Shown one piece after another: positions 21,530 through 30,962 of a stretch of DNA of 36,649 bases (position 1 is its first letter; the number at the start of each line of letters is the position of its first letter). This stretch comes from Acidisoma sp. L85 (lineage in GTDB: Bacteria; Pseudomonadota; Alphaproteobacteria; Acetobacterales; Acetobacteraceae), in NCBI RefSeq assembly GCF_009765865.1, contig NZ_LMUQ01000043.1:1-36649 (forward strand). Direction: 5' to 3'. The translations under genes were made by a program, and so were the position numbers. The notes beneath the pieces are model-generated. The model was given only the letters and a program-made list of their open reading frames with translations, was not told where the DNA came from and did not search any database.

Positions 21530-23293
21530 GAATTCTGGGTTCTTCCGCACATTTCGTGCTGGTTTGACGTTAGGCTGCGTTCAGCACCCGAGCGCGAAGG
21601 AGTTCGAAGCCTGCGCGGCCGTACATGGTGCGTTTTAGCATCTTCAGGCGACTGATCTGTCCCTCCACGGGGCTTGTGGTCCAGGGCAATTCAAGCGACG
21701 CCGAAATTGCTGCGAAGTCGCGACGTAAACCTGCGGCGAACCGCGCGAGCATGGTGTCAGCGGCGGCGGCAAGGATCGTGCCGAGATCGCCATTAATCTT
21801 GCGTCGGGGAAGCGCATTGAACTGCTGCGCCCAAGCGACGGCCGCGGCGAGCGCGGGCTCGTCCTCGAGCAGCTTGGTCCTGAAGAGTTCGTCCTCGGCG
21901 GTCAGCCTTGATGTTCCCGACATAAGCAGCCGTGCCAGCCGATACCCCCGCGGAACCGGCCAGATAGGCGGCAGGGGATCAGCCGCGATCTTGCCCTCGC
22001 CTGCGTCGTCTCGGCGATGCTTGCTCACCCAGTGCCGCACTGTGCTCGGTCGCCCGCGGAAGCCTAGGGACACCAGTTCGCGCCAGAGTTGGGCAGCGTT
22101 GCGGCATCCTTCATTCCACCGGCACGTCAGGACGTCGGCGAAAGGGTCGAGGATGCCGCCGCTCGGCGGCTGCTTCCACAGCGGGGCGTGCCCCAATCGG
22201 AGCCATCTTCGGACCGTCTTGCGCTCGGCGCCGAGTTCGGCGGCGACGCGTTTGATCGACGCTCCAGCGCTGCGCAGTCGCGCGGCCTCCTCGTACCGAG
22301 ACTGTCGGCGCGCACGCGATGCCATGCTGATCAACTCCGCAGCGGTCGGCTTCGAGGTGGCGGCTGTCATGGCAGCAGGAGGGGCCGATGCGGCGGACGC
22401 GCGGAGATTCGCCCTTACGTGTTGGGCCGCGCGGCCGGCGGCGGCACTGTGCTTGTCGGTAAGGTTCTGAACGGCCTCGCCGAGATTCCTGAGCAGGTGC
22501 CACCGGTCGGCTACTTGCACCGCGGCGGGCGCCCCTTGCCGAATGCCGTCGGCATAAGCGCCAGCACGGTCACGGGCTACGACCTCGATACCGGGGCGAT
22601 CGCGCAGCCAAGCTGCAACAGTTCCTGCTTCCCGGTCGGGCAAGAGATCCACCACGTGGTTGGTCTCCAGGTCCACCACCACTGTCCCGTACCGACGTCC
22701 TCGTCTCCACGCCCAATCGTCAATCCCGAGCACTCGTGGAGTTCGCGCGGGCGCTCCAATGCGTGACAGGGCCGATGCCAATCGCAGCAGCGTGTCCGGG
22801 CTGGTCGGGATTGCAAGCCGCGTCGCAAGGCGCGCACCAGCCTCACCGCCCAGCGCGAACGCTAGATGTCGATGCAAATCTCGAAGTCTTTCGGTCTGTC
22901 GGCTCGACGGGTGTATTACCCCTGTCAGACGTTCAGCGAATGTCTGGCGCGAACAAATCCGGTTGCGACAGCGGAAGCGGCGCGCTGCCACCCGGATCGT
23001 CACGGCTCGTCCTTGCCACGGTAGATCACTCAAAACGCGCCGATAAACACTGTGAACCCGTGTCGACGCCACGCCGCAGGTTGGACAATCCGCGACCATT
23101 GGGCGGGGTGACGCCTCGATTGTCACTCGATCTGCAGTCGGCACCACGCGAATCACTTGTAGCGCGCGAGGGATGAAGGAAAGCAAGGAAGGGGGCACGT
23201 TGAGCACCTTGGACGTGAGTCCAGGTGTCTCCTCGATCCAGTCCTCGAGTACAAGCCAAACCAGCACGAAATGTGCGGAAGAACCGAATTCTG
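21530..23293 (-). mobile_element. complete ISL3-family insertion sequence with 8-bp target duplication
   Basis: The element spans 21538-23285 (1,748 bp). Its ends are perfect 29-bp inverted repeats, 21538-21566 beginning GGTTCTTCCGCACATTTCGT and 23257-23285. Both sides carry the same octamer, GAATTCTG (21530-21537 and 23286-23293), the 8-bp duplication expected for ISL3. The perfect ends and duplication indicate a recent, intact insertion. It lies at the truncated 5' edge of the IS1182 remnant. Confidence 0.93.
21570..23198 (-). CDS. ISL3-family transposase
   Basis: A 542-residue transposase. It has the N-terminal zinc-ribbon-like region (ADCPTCGVASTRVHSVYRRV; RFRCRNRICSRQTFAERL), the DDE core (VLGIDDWAWRRGRRYGTVVV; VVARDRAGAYADGIRQGAP; VADRWHLLRNLGEAV), an inserted helix-turn-helix (AAELGAERKTVRRWLRLG), and the terminal WTTSPVEGQISRLKMLKRTM with the catalytic Glu. 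I start it at the GTG at 23198, inside the element, with AAGGTG about seven bases upstream; an open frame runs on to 23336 but crosses the inverted repeat and target site. The stop lies three bases inside the left terminal repeat. It looks functional. Confidence 0.92.
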   Translation of the reverse strand: MPPSLLSFIPRALQVIRVVPTADRVTIEASPRPMVADCPTCGVASTRVHSVYRRVLSDLPWQGRAVTIRVAARRFRCRNRICSRQTFAERLTGVIHPSSRQTERLRDLHRHLAFALGGEAGARLATRLAIPTSPDTLLRLASALSRIGAPARTPRVLGIDDWAWRRGRRYGTVVVDLETNHVVDLLPDREAGTVAAWLRDRPGIEVVARDRAGAYADGIRQGAPAAVQVADRWHLLRNLGEAVQNLTDKHSAAAGRAAQHVRANLRASAASAPPAAMTAATSKPTAAELISMASRARRQSRYEEAARLRSAGASIKRVAAELGAERKTVRRWLRLGHAPLWKQPPSGGILDPFADVLTCRWNEGCRNAAQLWRELVSLGFRGRPSTVRHWVSKHRRDDAGEGKIAADPLPPIWPVPRGYRLARLLMSGTSRLTAEDELFRTKLLEDEPALAAAVAWAQQFNALPRRKINGDLGTILAAAADTMLARFAAGLRRDFAAISASLELPWTTSPVEGQISRLKMLKRTMYGRAGFELLRARVLNAA

Positions 23294-23399
23294 GCCCGGA
23301 GTGCTGGCGGATTTTGGCCCACCCTCCGTCCCTCAACCTACGGTCACCCTGGTTTTGCCGGGGGACGCGGAGTGGATTGGAACGTCAGAGTGGAATTGT

Positions 23400-25022: not shown

Positions 25023-28000
25023 CTAGGTCCCTGGCGATGGCGAGGAGGATCGCCGGGTTGCCACGTGATCCATCTCGCGCCGCGACAGCTCCGCGTCAAT
25101 CCGGAGGCTACGGAGATGGCCCTCCCGGTCGGACAAGGGTCCGGTGAGGGTCGTCTCGGCCGCCGCGATCGCGTGGTCCAGCGAGGCAATGAGCGCCGGA
25201 ATGCTTTTGCGCACGGCCTCGGCCTGCATTCGGCCGCGGGCTTCGCGGCCAATGCTGCGCCCTTGGAGCTCCATCGTCTCCACGCGATGTCCGGCAGCCA
25301 TGAAGGAGCGCACCGCCAAGTCGCGGTCCTCTCGAGCCGCCTGCATCAGGTCCATGCCGAGCGCCTTGTAGGGTTTGGCGGCCATGTCCTCGGCCACCTT
25401 GGACCACATGTCCTCGGCCTTGATCGGCGTCAGGTCACCCAACGCGCGCCGGCTGCGAACGGCGTCGAAGGTCGCCACATCCGAAATCATCGTCCAAGTA
25501 GTTCCACGCGCCCGACTTTCCGCCACGTAGGCCGTGAACCCGGTCATACCGGCGGTGCCGCGGGGCAGGGCGTTGATGTGCTCGTCCGAGGTGATCCCCT
25601 GCGCGGCGTCGATCGTCATGGCATGCCCGAAGCCGACCAGAAGCCGCCCTGTCGCCTTGTGCTCGAGGCGCTTCCACTCGACCTCGCCCAGGCGCCCGGC
25701 CTTGTCGCGCAACACCAAGCCGTTCGCCATGCGGCCCACCACCTCGACGATATCGCCATTGTTGCCGATCGAGCCGCCTTTGCCGTTGATCTTGGCCCAG
25801 GTCCGCCGGAACAGCCGGAGCTTGTCGCCTGTCGCGATAGGGATGGCATAGTGTTCGCCGCGCTGATCGATCGCCTCATAGACCTGCTCGTCATTGCGAA
25901 GCTCGCCACGCACCTGCATCCGGTCGCGGATGGCGCGGCTGAGGTCAGCGGTGTCGGCGTTAGTCGGCGCTGAGACGGTGATGCTCCCCTTTGAGCCAGC
26001 GGCTGTGAGGGCGTCCCGACGCTGCATGTAAAAGTCTGCGATACGGCCGATGACTTGGTCTTGGTCGCCGCCGATGAAGCGGGCGGTGCCGTCTTGGCGC
26101 TTCATGGCGAGGGCTTTCTCCACTTCGCCAAGGTGATGGTTGCGTCGCTCCACCGCTTCCAGCTCGGCTTGACCATTAGCGAGGCGTGGCCCGCTGATCT
26201 CCCGGCCGCGTTGCTTTCCGGGAAGCCTGTCCGCGGAATCGAGGTCAGGCTCGGCGCCCCGGAACAGGCCCGCGATCATCCGCAGGCGACGCGTCTCGGA
26301 TGCGTTGCGTCCTTTCTGGCGGACAGTGCTGAGCAGCTCGGCCTGTGCCTCCTTCGGCAACACCCGCCGCAAGATCTCAATGGCATCGCCCGCCTCGACC
26401 GACTGCGCTTGCTCCCGGTCGCCCAAGGCCTTGATGGTCAGGCCGGTCTTGCGCTGGAGCTGCAAGAGAGCGAGCATTGCGCGGGGTGCGACTTGGCTGA
26501 TTTCGTCGATCACCAGGACCGTATTGCGGCTGGCTGCGAATTCGCCGCTCTCGATCGCCCTAAGGAGCGGATCCATGGCGATCGTTCTGACAACGCCAGC
26601 ATCCTTGAGGGCGTCTGCCTGCTTCCAGCCCGTCGCCAATCCCAAAACGTCCCGACCACCCGCATCAAAACGGGTATCGGCCTTCCAGGCCTCGACCAAA
26701 GGCTTGACCAGCGTGGTCTTCCCGGCGCCCGCCACGCCTGTGAGCAGCGAGAGGGCACCTCCCTGGCCAAGCGCATAGATCGCCGCCCTCTGGGCAGCCC
26801 CGTGATCCGGCTCTGACGTGAAATCCAGGCCCGAGGCGGCAATCGCCGCCGCGATGGCGCCGTGGGTTAGAGCGCCGGCCTTGTCGGCCGCCGCGCGGGT
26901 CGCCTCCGCGGCGAGGCTTTCCTCGATCCGGACCTGGGCGGTGTTGGTGACGCGGACCTTGTCGCCGGACATGCCAAGGATGAGTGCGACCTGTTCGCCC
27001 TTCAGCGTCAGGCCCCGCTGCTCGATGAGCGACACCACCTGATCGATGTCACTAACACCGCCGGCGATGCCGGTTCCGATCAGGCTCCGCGCCGCATACA
27101 TCCGGAGCTTGTCGTGGTCGATGACGGCGGCCGTGTGGAATTCCTGGGCAAGATGGCGGGCGGCGAAGCGGTAGGCGGCGTCGAAGCGTTCGGCAGCCGG
27201 CCGCACCTCGTGCTGGGTTTCGTCGAGGATAGTCTGATGGTGCCAGCCAATCGTGGCGGCCTGCTCCCGCCAGATTTCGTGGTCGTTCTTGTCACCATGC
27301 TTCTTCAAGCGCGAGGCAAGGCCGGCGGTGGAAAGGATCTTGAACTTGCCCTCGATGGATAGCGCGTCCCAGTTAAGCCCTTGAGACTGAGCATAGGCCT
27401 TCGCAGATCCCAGAATCTGCCGGCGACCTTTGCTGAACAGATCGACGGCCTGTTGCGGGATCGCCTCGAGCACGATCGCTTGTTCATTCTTGTCGTAGCC
27501 GATCCGGGCGCCAAGGCGCCGCAGTTCATCGGCCAATCGTGCCTGGAAGAAGGCGCCGAACTCGTGCACACGGCTATGAAGGCGCTGAGTATCGAGGGAG
27601 CCCACGCGACTGTCCTCGGTGACGACCAGGTTGAAGAGGGCATTGTGGATGTGAGCATGCGGGTCACCGCCGATCGGCGATTGCGCCAGGTAGGTTGCGC
27701 CGTGCGCGCCATCCTGCACGGGTAGGGTGGGCCGGGCGGTATGATGACGAAAGCTCACCCACCCGACTTCCCCCGGGTCGGCGCCGTCCTCCCCGGCCTT
27801 CCCCTTACGCGCCCAACCGACCTCCCGAGCCACGAAGCGCATGGTGGCGTCGTTCGCACGATCGATGGCGTGCCAGATCATGGCGCTCTCGGCGGCCGTC
27901 GCTGCGAATTCGGCCGCCAGGGTGACTGACTTGTGCGGTGCCAGCGTCAGGTCATAGGCGCTGACCTTGCGCTTCTGCTCTGTCCAGGCTTCCCCGGTAT

Positions 28001-28274
28001 CGGCGCGCTTGGCTTCGAATAGCCGATCGAGATCGGCGTCCTTGGGCATGGTCCGTGGATCGATACCAAGCGCTTGCGCCACCTCAGCAGGCGTATCCGG
28101 CCGCCACGTCGCGCGGCTGTCGCGCCCCGTGTAGTACGAGGTGAGCCGGCCGCCGCTGTCCAGCACCCTGCCAGGGTCCGTCCGGAAGTCATGGGCCGGT
28201 TGCGGAGTATTCTCGGTGAAGTAGGCGCGGATCAGCTTGCCGGCGGACGCGGCCGCCAGCTTGCGGAAGGTCAT
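25023..28274 (-). CDS. traA: MobF-family conjugative relaxase-helicase
   Basis: A 1,083-residue bifunctional protein of the TrwC/TraI type that nicks oriT and unwinds the strand for transfer. The relaxase domain covers about 1-330: candidate catalytic tyrosines in LTSYYTG (47-48), the YDLTLAPHKSVTLA motif, and the metal-binding GGDPHAHIHNALF (His206, 208, 210). The helicase domain follows: Walker A GVAGAGKTT (513-521), Walker B VLVIDE (586-591), and later AITIDAAQG-like motif (GHAMTIDAAQGITSDE). Length is normal for MobF. The ATG at 28274 overlaps the stop of the accessory gene (TGATG); an in-frame GTG at 28277 also exists. The symbol follows common use for such relaxases and is not specific. 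Confidence 0.93.
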   Translation of the reverse strand: MTFRKLAAASAGKLIRAYFTENTPQPAHDFRTDPGRVLDSGGRLTSYYTGRDSRATWRPDTPAEVAQALGIDPRTMPKDADLDRLFEAKRADTGEAWTEQKRKVSAYDLTLAPHKSVTLAAEFAATAAESAMIWHAIDRANDATMRFVAREVGWARKGKAGEDGADPGEVGWVSFRHHTARPTLPVQDGAHGATYLAQSPIGGDPHAHIHNALFNLVVTEDSRVGSLDTQRLHSRVHEFGAFFQARLADELRRLGARIGYDKNEQAIVLEAIPQQAVDLFSKGRRQILGSAKAYAQSQGLNWDALSIEGKFKILSTAGLASRLKKHGDKNDHEIWREQAATIGWHHQTILDETQHEVRPAAERFDAAYRFAARHLAQEFHTAAVIDHDKLRMYAARSLIGTGIAGGVSDIDQVVSLIEQRGLTLKGEQVALILGMSGDKVRVTNTAQVRIEESLAAEATRAAADKAGALTHGAIAAAIAASGLDFTSEPDHGAAQRAAIYALGQGGALSLLTGVAGAGKTTLVKPLVEAWKADTRFDAGGRDVLGLATGWKQADALKDAGVVRTIAMDPLLRAIESGEFAASRNTVLVIDEISQVAPRAMLALLQLQRKTGLTIKALGDREQAQSVEAGDAIEILRRVLPKEAQAELLSTVRQKGRNASETRRLRMIAGLFRGAEPDLDSADRLPGKQRGREISGPRLANGQAELEAVERRNHHLGEVEKALAMKRQDGTARFIGGDQDQVIGRIADFYMQRRDALTAAGSKGSITVSAPTNADTADLSRAIRDRMQVRGELRNDEQVYEAIDQRGEHYAIPIATGDKLRLFRRTWAKINGKGGSIGNNGDIVEVVGRMANGLVLRDKAGRLGEVEWKRLEHKATGRLLVGFGHAMTIDAAQGITSDEHINALPRGTAGMTGFTAYVAESRARGTTWTMISDVATFDAVRSRRALGDLTPIKAEDMWSKVAEDMAAKPYKALGMDLMQAAREDRDLAVRSFMAAGHRVETMELQGRSIGREARGRMQAEAVRKSIPALIASLDHAIAAAETTLTGPLSDREGHLRSLRIDAELSRREMDHVATRRSSSPSPGT

Positions 28275-28648
28275 CACGAGGCAGCACTCCCGTCCGCGCC
28301 ATGGCCGGCAGCGGCCCCATACCCGTTCGTCCCGGACGTCCCTTTCATGGCGCGGACCACATCGTCTGGCAGGCTCGTGGCCATGCTGTCGGTGCGGCGA
28401 TCGATGCGTCGGAGGAGGGCCCCGTTATCACCGACTCTCGCCACCAACTCAGCCAGCAATTCCTGCATTGACGGCCCGTCACCAAGCTCAGGCGTGAGCT
28501 TCCCGATGACGACGCCCAGCTGCTCCGCAAGGAGCCGCAAGATCGCCCCTTGTGCTTCGAGGGTGCCGGCGATCTGCGCCTGCTCAGACTTCAGTTCGTC
28601 CTGTCCGCGAATAATGCGGATCAGAATATCGGTCGCCTCGGTCGCCAT
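28274..28648 (-). CDS. relaxase-operon accessory protein, coiled coil
   Basis: A 124-residue protein. Its first 60 residues are helical with heptad character (ILIRIIRGQDELKSEQAQIA, then GTLEAQGAILRLLAEQLGVV) and the middle helix reads MQELLAELVARVGDNGALLR; the tail is Gly/Ala-rich and disordered. It is directly upstream of, and overlaps by one base, the MobF gene, the position taken by small relaxosome or coupling accessory proteins in other plasmids. GGAG precedes the ATG at 28648 and lies inside a 9-bp dyad. Its biochemical role cannot be read from the sequence. Confidence 0.7.
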   Translation of the reverse strand: MATEATDILIRIIRGQDELKSEQAQIAGTLEAQGAILRLLAEQLGVVIGKLTPELGDGPSMQELLAELVARVGDNGALLRRIDRRTDSMATSLPDDVVRAMKGTSGTNGYGAAAGHGADGSAAS

Positions 28649-28677: not shown

Positions 28678-28778
28678 CCGAAAATCGGTGCGAACGACGT
28701 CAGACGTTTTTCTCGACCTGCGTCAATGCGTGTCGCCGTGCACGACGGGTGCAATGGTGTATGGAAAACCCTTTTTGA

Positions 28779-28866
28779 CGGAAAGCTCACGGCAAGCCGA
28801 CGGCAAGTCGAGGGAAAACTCACGGCAACTGGGCGGAAATTTCACGTCCAGCGCTCGGAAGAACAT
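28779..28866 (+). repeat. 11-bp phased direct-repeat array
   Basis: Hexamer cores fall exactly 11 bp apart: CGGAAA 28779, CGGCAA 28790, CGGCAA 28801, GGGAAA 28812, CGGCAA 28823, CGGAAA 28834, a degenerate CGTCCA 28845, and CGGAAG 28856. Units 1 and 4 agree over a longer stretch (GGAAAgCTCACGGCAA and GGAAAaCTCACGGCAA, 33 bp apart). One motif per helical turn places all cores on one DNA face, which suits cooperative binding of a small dimeric protein such as a relaxosome or partition factor. The period is shorter than typical replication iterons (17-22 bp). Confidence 0.75.
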
Positions 28867-28926: not shown

Positions 28927-29436
28927 ATGACCAAGGAAGAGCACGAGCGAGCGAGAGCGACGATGAAGGCGCGAGCGTATCCGCGTAACAGTCACCTGTA
29001 CCGCTGGCTTCGTGAAAACCACCGAATGGTGGGGGAGGCCTTCAAGGCCACGGGCGCTGGCTGGGACGGTCTCCTTGCCGTTGTCCTGGATGCCGGCGTC
29101 GTGGGGCGGCAAGGAGCCCCTCCCAACAAATGGTCGGTGCGTAAGGTTTGGCTCCGCGTCTGCGCCGACATCGCGGCCGAAGTGGCTGACCAAGGAGCCA
29201 CGAAGTCCGCCAAGCCACCATCCGATCGAAGCCGACAAAAAGGAGATTGGCAGCCGCCGATCACGACGAAGGACACCTCGGTAGGTCGCCGGGTCAGTCC
29301 GCCGACGGCTGCGCCTGTTCCCGCTCAACAAGGTGACGAACATCTATCGGAGCGAGTGAGAGCGCAGTTGGCTGCGGTCGACGAACAGTTTGCCTACTTG
29401 GACCGGCATATCATCCGGCCAAAACAAAGGACCTGA
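28927..29436 (+). CDS. conjugal transfer protein in TraK position
   Basis: A 169-residue basic protein. The N-terminal 80 residues look like a folded helical domain (SHLYRWLRENHRMVGEAFKA, then WSVRKVWLRVCADIA) that could bind DNA; a disordered Ser/Pro/Arg-rich linker and a short terminal helix follow (SERVRAQLAAVDEQFAYLDR). I do not recognise a named family. It is the first gene facing out of the probable oriT and is followed by a TraL-like ATPase, the order traK-traL-traM known from IncP plasmids. By position it may bind the phased repeats. The ATG at 28927 lacks a good ribosome binding site; an ATG at 28963 is an alternative. Confidence 0.6.
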   Translation: MTKEEHERARATMKARAYPRNSHLYRWLRENHRMVGEAFKATGAGWDGLLAVVLDAGVVGRQGAPPNKWSVRKVWLRVCADIAAEVADQGATKSAKPPSDRSRQKGDWQPPITTKDTSVGRRVSPPTAAPVPAQQGDEHLSERVRAQLAAVDEQFAYLDRHIIRPKQRT

Positions 29437-29440
29437 AACC

Positions 29441-30280
29441 TTGTCAGAAGCATCGCAGCCCCACGACGGTCGCCCTGTCCTCTTCGTTGGTGTTGGCCGA
29501 CAGAGGGTCGGCAAAACCACCTTGCTAAATACCATCATCCAGTCCTTGCGAGAGCAGGGGACGGAGTTGGTCATCTGGAATGCCGACCTTCTTAACGTGA
29601 CGTATAACCTTCCGCTGTTCCACCGCGATGTGCTGGAGCCACCTTCATCTGAATTCGAGGATGTGAAGTCTTGGCTGGAGGAGCGAATTCAGGATCAGAT
29701 TGACGGTCAATATAATGCCTTCCTTGATGTCGGTGGCGGCGACACGGCCCTGAGCCGGTTGGTCCAGGAGATCCCAATCGTCCAGACATTGGAGCGCCAG
29801 GGAATCCGGGTGGTGCTTGCCCACGTCATCGGACCAGAACAAGCAGACGTTGATTATCTACGGCACTTCACGGCGCGCCAACTCTTCGCACCTGAAGCGA
29901 CACTGATTGTGCTGAATGCTGGCTTGATTATGTCGGGGCGATCAGCCGCCCATGCATTCGCCGCGATCCGTCGTCATCCCGTCGTGACGGCTGCGATCGA
30001 TCAGGGCGCTCACCTCGTGATGATGCCGCCGCTATCCTGTATGTCGCAGGTTACAGACCGCGGCCTCACCTTCTCTGAAGCCGGGGAGGGAGTGATTAAG
30101 GGCGATCGCCCCCGCCTCTCATTCTTTGACCAGGAGCGGGTTGCGATTTGGTGGCAGAAGGCTGTGCCTGTTTTCATCGCGTCTATCCCGCCGCTGTGGC
30201 TGCCCTATCGGCCTGGGGCCAGGCCGATCGCTATCCCAGCTGCTAGCGAGAGTTCGACCGAGGATGCCGCCAGTGCTTGA
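29441..30280 (+). CDS. TraL/ParA-like P-loop ATPase
   Basis: A 279-residue cytoplasmic ATPase. The N-terminal VLFVGVGRQRVGKTTLLN is a Walker A motif (residues 17-27), and FLDVGGGDTALSRLV occupies the Walker B region, as in the ParA/MinD-related TraL and TraC proteins of conjugation systems. The rest has the alternating strand-helix pattern of the fold (IRVVLAHVIGPEQADVDYL; ATLIVLNAGLIMSG). I place the start at a TTG at 29441, because AAAGGA lies nine bases upstream and the previous gene stops five bases before; the frame upstream of it is a shadow. Its partners are probably the genes on either side. Confidence 0.78.
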   Translation: MSEASQPHDGRPVLFVGVGRQRVGKTTLLNTIIQSLREQGTELVIWNADLLNVTYNLPLFHRDVLEPPSSEFEDVKSWLEERIQDQIDGQYNAFLDVGGGDTALSRLVQEIPIVQTLERQGIRVVLAHVIGPEQADVDYLRHFTARQLFAPEATLIVLNAGLIMSGRSAAHAFAAIRRHPVVTAAIDQGAHLVMMPPLSCMSQVTDRGLTFSEAGEGVIKGDRPRLSFFDQERVAIWWQKAVPVFIASIPPLWLPYRPGARPIAIPAASESSTEDAASA

Positions 30281-30299
30281 GAACAGCCAGGAGCGAAGG

Positions 30300-30962
30300 G
30301 TGTCGGACACGGTCCCGCCGCCCTTGGATCTCGCGGAAATGCGCAGCCGCTTTGCAGACCGGCTAGCCGCTGTCGAGACGGCCGCGCGTGATTGGGGGGT
30401 GCGGCCTGAATATCCCGAAGGGGTTTTCATCTCGACAATGATCAGCACGCAGGCCGGGTTCGCGGAAGTAGCGTTGGGCGTCGCGGATGCACTGCTCACC
30501 ATTGTCGAGCGGGCGAAGGCGGCGGGAGAGGATGAGTTGGCCCGGCAAAGGGTCGTGACGGAGCGAACGCGCCAAACGCTGGCGAAGGCGAGTGGCGTGA
30601 TAGAGAACCTGGACAGGGGTGCGCGGCAGGCAATCGAGAAGATCGAGGTCGATAAAACCGCGGTCTTGACCCAGCTGGTCAAAGACATTTTGCCGGACAT
30701 GACGCGCGGGGTTCGCGAGGCGCTCGTCATTAAGCAGCGTCGATACAATCACGAACGCGAGTGGATGCGCGCCCTTTGCATCGGCGCGCTGATGGTGGGC
30801 CTGGTGCTGACAGGCTACGTCTGGGGCACGTGGTCGGACTGGGGTATGGCCGGCCGCGTTGAAAACATTGGCATTGCGATCGAACGCTGCCAACTGACGT
30901 CACATTGGGAGGACGACAAGGGGAATCGACTCTGCGAGATGAAAGACTTCTCTGGGATTTAG
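30300..30962 (+). CDS. membrane-anchored coiled-coil transfer protein (TraM position)
   Basis: A 220-residue protein. A long helical region (about 10-150, with RFADRLAAVETAARDWG, ADALLTIVERAKAAGEDELA and ARQAIEKIEVDKTAVL) is followed by one membrane segment, ALCIGALMVGLVLTGYVWGT (about 158-177), and a short C-terminal tail with two Cys. The cytoplasmic coiled coil tethered to the inner membrane would suit a link between relaxosome and transfer channel. I chose the GTG at 30300 because AGGAG lies six bases upstream and it starts 19 bases after the ATPase stop; earlier in-frame starts overlap that gene. Family unknown. Confidence 0.68.
   Translation: MSDTVPPPLDLAEMRSRFADRLAAVETAARDWGVRPEYPEGVFISTMISTQAGFAEVALGVADALLTIVERAKAAGEDELARQRVVTERTRQTLAKASGVIENLDRGARQAIEKIEVDKTAVLTQLVKDILPDMTRGVREALVIKQRRYNHEREWMRALCIGALMVGLVLTGYVWGTWSDWGMAGRVENIGIAIERCQLTSHWEDDKGNRLCEMKDFSGI

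Follow-up and report, generated by a model that had tools for sequence, protein, structure and literature searches.

An array of eight 11-bp direct repeats beside a predicted transfer origin of Acidisoma sp. L85 is quite probably the specific binding site of the StbA-like protein whose gene lies at 28927-29436: a centromere-like site that would probably serve as operator and restrain transfer as well. The window, that is, the whole stretch of 36,649 nucleotides analysed, belongs to contig C64, and the genome measures 6.4 Mb. Its gene order places a three-gene stb-like operon divergent from the MOB genes across the predicted oriT, with the following features.

25023 to 28277, minus strand: MOBF (TrwC/TraA-type) relaxase-helicase P0001 (PF08751, 1e-40; NF041492 MobF, 1e-44, above cut-off)

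28274 to 28648, minus strand: small gene P0002 in the TrwA position, directly before the relaxase (gene order)

28739 to 28763, plus strand: candidate oriT nic element, with hairpin TGCAC-GACGG-GTGCA and then ATGGTGTATG (sequence, relatives)

28779 to 28866, plus strand: 11-bp direct-repeat array of eight units, proposed binding array of the StbA-like protein (period tests, motif counts)

28927 to 29436, plus strand: StbA-position gene P0003, 169 aa (predicted helical domain at the N-terminus, linker of low confidence, helix at the C-terminus)

29441 to 30280, plus strand: StbB-position ATPase with a GRQRVGKT P-loop and a predicted SIMIBI (ParA/MinD-class) fold (sequence, predicted model)

30300 to 30962, plus strand: StbC-position protein with one likely membrane segment by eye (sequence reading)

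The array units start at 28779, 28790, 28801, 28812, 28823, 28834, 28845 and 28856, the step being exactly 11 bp throughout. The first-pass annotation had claimed this spacing, a [C/G]GG[A/C]AA core and a degenerate unit at 28845. The spacing and the degenerate unit (CGTCCA) were confirmed; the core proved strict in six of the eight units, and unit 28856 (CGGAAG), which that annotation did not mention, is off in its last base, one mismatch to the core. At period 11, column identity was 0.64 over six units compared with 0.33 +/- 0.03 in Markov shuffles, and 0.58 over eight units compared with 0.30; 0 of 1000 shuffles equalled the six- or eight-unit identity. Period 11 alone was prominent in the intergenic region (periods 7-23 tested), and the array was the highest-scoring periodic stretch of the whole window (z 10.6; periods 8-24 scanned). 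SGGMAA-N5-SGGMAA occurs five times in the window, always within the array, against 0.09 expected. Three consecutive units with at most one mismatch were matched six times in the 6.4-Mb genome, four times inside the array and twice as isolated sites outside it with one mismatch each. A helical turn takes about 10.5 bp. Because 11 bp is not a whole turn, the earlier statement that all motifs face the same side of the helix holds only approximately, the angular drift along the eight units being roughly 120 degrees. A plasmid nucleotide search with the intergenic region as query returned a single short match, and no earlier description of the array of this lineage was found in the open-licence literature.

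The genes on the two flanks were correctly anticipated. The PF08751 and NF041492 matches establish the MobF relaxase on one side, and the gene on the other had been called TraK-position; TraK of RP4 is listed among the R388 StbA-related proteins in the accessible part of PMC3098194. P0003 is the most divergent gene of the module among close relatives. Its predicted structure has a mean pLDDT of 81, and no Pfam or NCBIfam family matched it above cut-off. A Foldseek search against 350,542 chains gave nothing significant; the R388 StbA domain (7pc1) came fourth (E 5.9), with the highest probability (0.16) and target TM-score (0.51) among the 11 matches listed. In hhalign, the StbA family and the R388 StbA family aligned over 51 columns at a probability of 33% (E 4.4e-4, a single-comparison value), and the corresponding profile comparison of the StbB families reached a probability of 14%. 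Family-versus-single-sequence comparison with R388 StbA and StbB gave no match, no NCBIfam StbA or StbB model was listed for the window proteins, and a genome-contig scan with P0003 alone returned no matches. A PDB sequence search with the StbA family yielded one weak match, aminodeoxyfutalosine synthase, which we discarded.

The StbB-position model (mean pLDDT 86) matches MinD, ParA, TP228 ParA/ParF and MipZ as well as SRP, FtsY, HypB and Get3, with E about 1e-5, probability 1.0 and TM-scores of about 0.4-0.6. Because SRP/FtsY, HypB and Get3 match alongside MinD, TP228 ParA/ParF and MipZ, the predicted class of the protein is SIMIBI and a ParA-like function is putative. In a search with NF041292, the NCBIfam StbB subfamily, the window protein was not listed up to E 1; R388 StbB scores 335.6 bits. 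From reading the sequence, the StbB-position gene probably starts with TTG at 29441 and the StbC-position gene with GTG at 30300; the searches used 29429-30280 and 30189-30962, respectively. An ISL3 family transposase lies at 21570-23336, beside the conjugation region.

To place the array among its relatives, 81 loci were compared. The StbB-position protein matched 94 plasmid records by tblastn, from which 18 regions were taken; three regions from P0003 or DNA matches, 58 species-genome loci, the window and C68, the second locus of the window's own genome, complete the set. Within up to 1.9 kb upstream of stbB, the best period (8-20) was 11 in 56 of the 81 loci, or in 50 of 70 without known duplicates, versus 0 of 80 downstream control stretches; such best-period counts are open to influence from coding sequence, which favours multiples of 3. 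The array as a product of chance or compositional periodicity would fit the shortness of the units and their mixed letters, and is rendered next to negligible in probability by this upstream-downstream contrast and by the 1000 shuffles.

The candidate nic element, with GGTGCAATGGTGTATG at 28748-28763, recurs with the array. Its degenerate pattern, GGTGCAWTGGTSYATG, has three exact matches in the genome (C14, C64 and C68), each beside an 11-bp array. Of 126 distinct anchors on the core [AT]TGGT[CG], 69 have a perfect 5-bp hairpin on the 5' side, compared with 11 of 504 control positions. This count is anchored on the core alone; arm counts made with the nic regular expression are partly forced, since that expression itself specifies some of the hairpin. 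The arms across loci include GCACC/GGTGC, GCATC/GATGC, GCACT/AGTGC and CATGC/GCATG; TGCAC/GTGCA is the GCAC/GTGC pair in a shifted register, and pairs with a single occurrence may have arisen by chance. The window element also has ATGGTGTAT in common with a Xanthomonas plasmid of R388 type. At the level of sequence, the compensatory arm changes, the hairpin 5' of the core and the common ATGGTGTAT support a MOBF nic site. We predict cleavage between 28760 and 28761, a placement by analogy with the cut position of R388. If this predicted nic and its strand are right, the array and the stb genes would enter the recipient first.

Among the 54 non-duplicate loci with a nic-like element, the best period in the 170 bp after it was 11 or 22 in 46, and 45 of these exceed the 95% null level; the same periods came out best in 10 of 162 shuffles and in 4 of 54 real stretches upstream of the nic-like element. 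The other eight loci gave 23 (four), 19 (two), 15 (one) and 10 (one). The 54 exclude 16 of the 81 loci, in which the nic regular expression did not match or the stretch was too short, and 11 further loci that duplicate others in the first 120 bp after the element; among the 16, at least four (L055, L078, L082 and L118) show the nic-like element or a variant on reading. Unit letters differ widely among the related loci, and some have no array by the period test. In a broader collection of 81 upstream stretches, made up of the window, C68 and 79 stretches from genomes that have several StbB-position relatives, the best period was 11 or 22 in 37 and 12 in 18 (row count), several of the latter with z above 10, so that 11 bp is not universal. 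The proposal to look for the same array at related loci was thus answered by period 11 in most of them, and also by varying unit letters and by loci with 12-bp repeats or no array by the test. The 12-bp arrays (z 10.8 to 14.1; L167, L168, L169, L171, L173, L174, L200, L202, L204 and L206) belong to more distant stb-like loci, and the four of these whose array letters were read have a TTGGTCTGT core.

A separate region of this kind is found at C14:17349-17568 (about 8350-8570 of L058), where an intact nic-like element and a shortened one are oriented towards each other. Each is followed by its own 11-bp repeats, with differing units by reading; the period test confirms one of the two. C14 gave no match to a StbB relative and a sole relaxase match that is weak and distant, and an adjoining serine-recombinase-like frame looks broken by eye. 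The region is possibly a relict of two plasmid leading regions.

Across the loci, the array tracks stbA and the nic-like element, not the relaxase. Where a relaxase match lies no more than 4.2 kb away, 33 of 39 loci have the array; where none is in view, 13 of 15 do, eight of these 15 having a short upstream stretch. On Beijerinckia pBIND01 and Methylosinus trichosporium pOB3b2, where the relaxase lies about 15 kb and about 22 kb, respectively, from the stb-like operon, nic element and array are found at stbA. Two relaxase loci from Beijerinckia and Methylosinus have neither, while a small gene in the P0002 position is present. The expectation that the array is a property of the relaxase locus therefore failed at these two examined loci, which have no adjacent stb operon. 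Beijerinckia indica pBIND01 also carries a tandem pair of StbB-like genes (L042:2617-4379).

These observations bear on the suggestion of the first-pass annotation that the array is a site of relaxosome assembly. As a relaxosome site within oriT, it would be bound by P0002 or the relaxase to aid nicking, in keeping with its start 18 bp past the predicted MOBF nic and with the co-occurrence of nic-like element and array in 46 of 54 loci. The relaxase is also preceded by a small TrwA-position gene here and in related plasmid regions, though on a different strand in Methylobacterium, and in L061 and L062 such a gene adjoins the relaxase as well (position compared only). We nevertheless regard a relaxosome site as unlikely, and less likely than an StbA-type centromere and operator, because the array goes with stbA and the nic-like element, not with the relaxase locus. 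In Beijerinckia and Methylosinus the P0002-position gene stays with the relaxase, but nic element and array stay with stbA; the window and C68 have different arrays despite identities of 81% in P0002 and 93% in the relaxase. Far less probable still is that the repeats are iterons at which a Rep protein starts replication. The constant length of the direct repeats and the plasmid-like contig would suit this; against it, no Rep family was recognised among the proteins scanned, the genes on either side of the array, P0002 and P0003, matching no family above cut-off, and the array accompanies stbA in most of the 81 loci.

The binding site of a StbA-like protein has a precedent in R388. According to the accessible passages of PMC3098194, stbABC of R388 runs divergently from the MOB operon, direct repeats of 9 bp (stbDRs) in two sets of five, with 2-nt spacing, surround its promoter beside oriT, StbA binds the stbDRs in vitro and needs them for its roles in stability and conjugation, and StbB is a ParA-like ATPase required for conjugation. 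The earlier opinion that the layout was undescribed is thus contradicted. In our period tests upstream of stbA, R388 and three StbA homologue loci, one from Xanthomonas (weak, z 5.2) and two from Pseudomonas, gave 11 in four of four cases (z 9.4, 5.2, 8.7 and 15.7); the Pseudomonas syringae homologue is on a MOBP plasmid with no annotated stbB behind it. R388 (IncW, MOBF11) and the window have in common a divergent MOB operon, an oriT (predicted in the window) and direct repeats of 11-bp period, then a small DNA-binding protein (here by its StbA position), a ParA-like ATPase (here by its predicted fold) and a third gene. The stb genes of the window would also lie on the leading side of nic, as in R388, if the predicted nic and its strand are right. 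They differ in that the window has one array instead of two sets of five, its unit letters depart from TTGCATCAT of R388, its array starts 18 bp after the predicted nic rather than about 115 bp after the cut as in R388, and several of its relatives are typed MPF_I whereas R388 is MPF_T. Layout and predicted ATPase fold are R388-like, and common descent with R388 StbA and StbB is putative. NAH7 TraD, a StbA homologue, and RP4 TraK likewise are StbA-position proteins beside oriT, a likeness of position; TraD protects the traDEF promoter region (accessible part of PMC12421886) and TraK binds between nic and traK (as cited in the same passages of PMC3098194).

We propose that copies of P0003 occupy neighbouring units, spaced by roughly one turn of the helix, beside the MOBF oriT. 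By analogy with R388 StbA and its stbDRs, the resulting nucleoprotein patch would act as a centromere-like site that spreads plasmid copies in the cell. It would probably repress its own stb promoter, and would hold transfer back until the plasmid is brought to the transfer machinery by the ParA/MinD-like partner. What we infer from this arrangement is the binding, the role in segregation, the repression, the control of transfer and the exact position of nic. The thought that a small protein might coat the array cooperatively and control transfer is compatible with the R388 reports in the accessible part of PMC3098194, and would carry over to the window by that analogy.

Another version would have the StbA-like protein autoregulate the stb operon with the array as operator alone and no role in segregation. 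The array ends 60 bp before the stbA start, and the R388 stbDRs lie around the stb promoter; on the other side, the stability role of R388 StbA depends on the repeats (both from passages of PMC3098194). Eight units would exceed the usual need of one operator, and a consensus promoter scan limited to sigma-70-type sites found no match at the array and stb upstream region. Moreover, neither the four ParB_N nor the 11 RepA-type partition ATPase matches of the genome lie on C64 or C68, contigs that are possibly incomplete. We consider this operator-only version improbable.

A small DNA-binding protein on short direct repeats is also found in ParR/parC of plasmid R1, where the parC repeats are 11 bp, and of clostridial plasmids. 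The motor of ParMRC is the actin-like ParM, whereas the window ATPase has a predicted SIMIBI fold; type II (ParMRC) partition was accordingly rejected, no actin-like ParM being found in the operon. ParMRC systems form specificity families that underlie compatibility (accessible part of PMC9426499).

Array type follows StbA type in the cases compared. Window and C68 are 93% identical in the relaxase, 81% in P0002, 82% in StbB and 89% in StbC but 43% in StbA, and their array units differ. C68 and the Acidisphaera locus L063 (relaxase 89%, P0002 65%, StbA 73%, StbB 86%, StbC 75%) both have TCCG-type units. Over 903 pairs from 43 loci, mean array similarity climbs from 0.30 where StbA similarity is lowest to 0.91 where it is highest. 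The Mantel partial rank correlation of array with StbA given StbB was 0.12 (1 of 999 permutations as high), and that of array with StbB given StbA 0.09 (16 of 999). The 43 loci come from the 46 with period 11 or 22, L053, L064 and L065 having been removed by hand because of a doubtful StbA frame, and several StbA coordinates were placed by hand. The association is thus in part common descent, and its separation from StbB is weak but non-random.

The StbA-like gene and its array may, tentatively, form a fast-changing plasmid address, in which unit letters and StbA change together. Equally tentatively, there would be little change meanwhile in the nic element, the relaxase, the ATPase and the pitch, which is 11 bp here and 12 bp in distant relatives. 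If so, related plasmids would be separately addressable with an unchanged transfer system, and the loci set up a test case of a DNA-binding protein and a repeat array changing together while the spacing holds. A rule that co-resident arrays must differ, as would be expected if arrays determined incompatibility, was not supported: 3 of 18 co-resident pairs with a usable array were similar (above 0.7), compared with 6 of 723 cross-genome pairs, a comparison confounded by relatedness. The contrast between the window and C68 arrays within one genome is a single case.

StbB-position relatives (E <= 0.001) occur in 126 of the 397 genomes of the family, about 35 of them weak (E above 1e-8). This suggests that inheritance and transfer are coupled in an R388-like way in a second plasmid lineage, one that is largely unannotated. 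For many plasmids the comparison supplies a predicted nic site and oriT; some of these plasmids are typed non-mobilizable by PLSDB, as are 31 of the 94 plasmid records with a StbB-position match. In several deposited records a StbB-position ATPase is named 'zeta toxin family protein' or 'FAD-binding oxidoreductase'; the predicted fold of the window member is SIMIBI.
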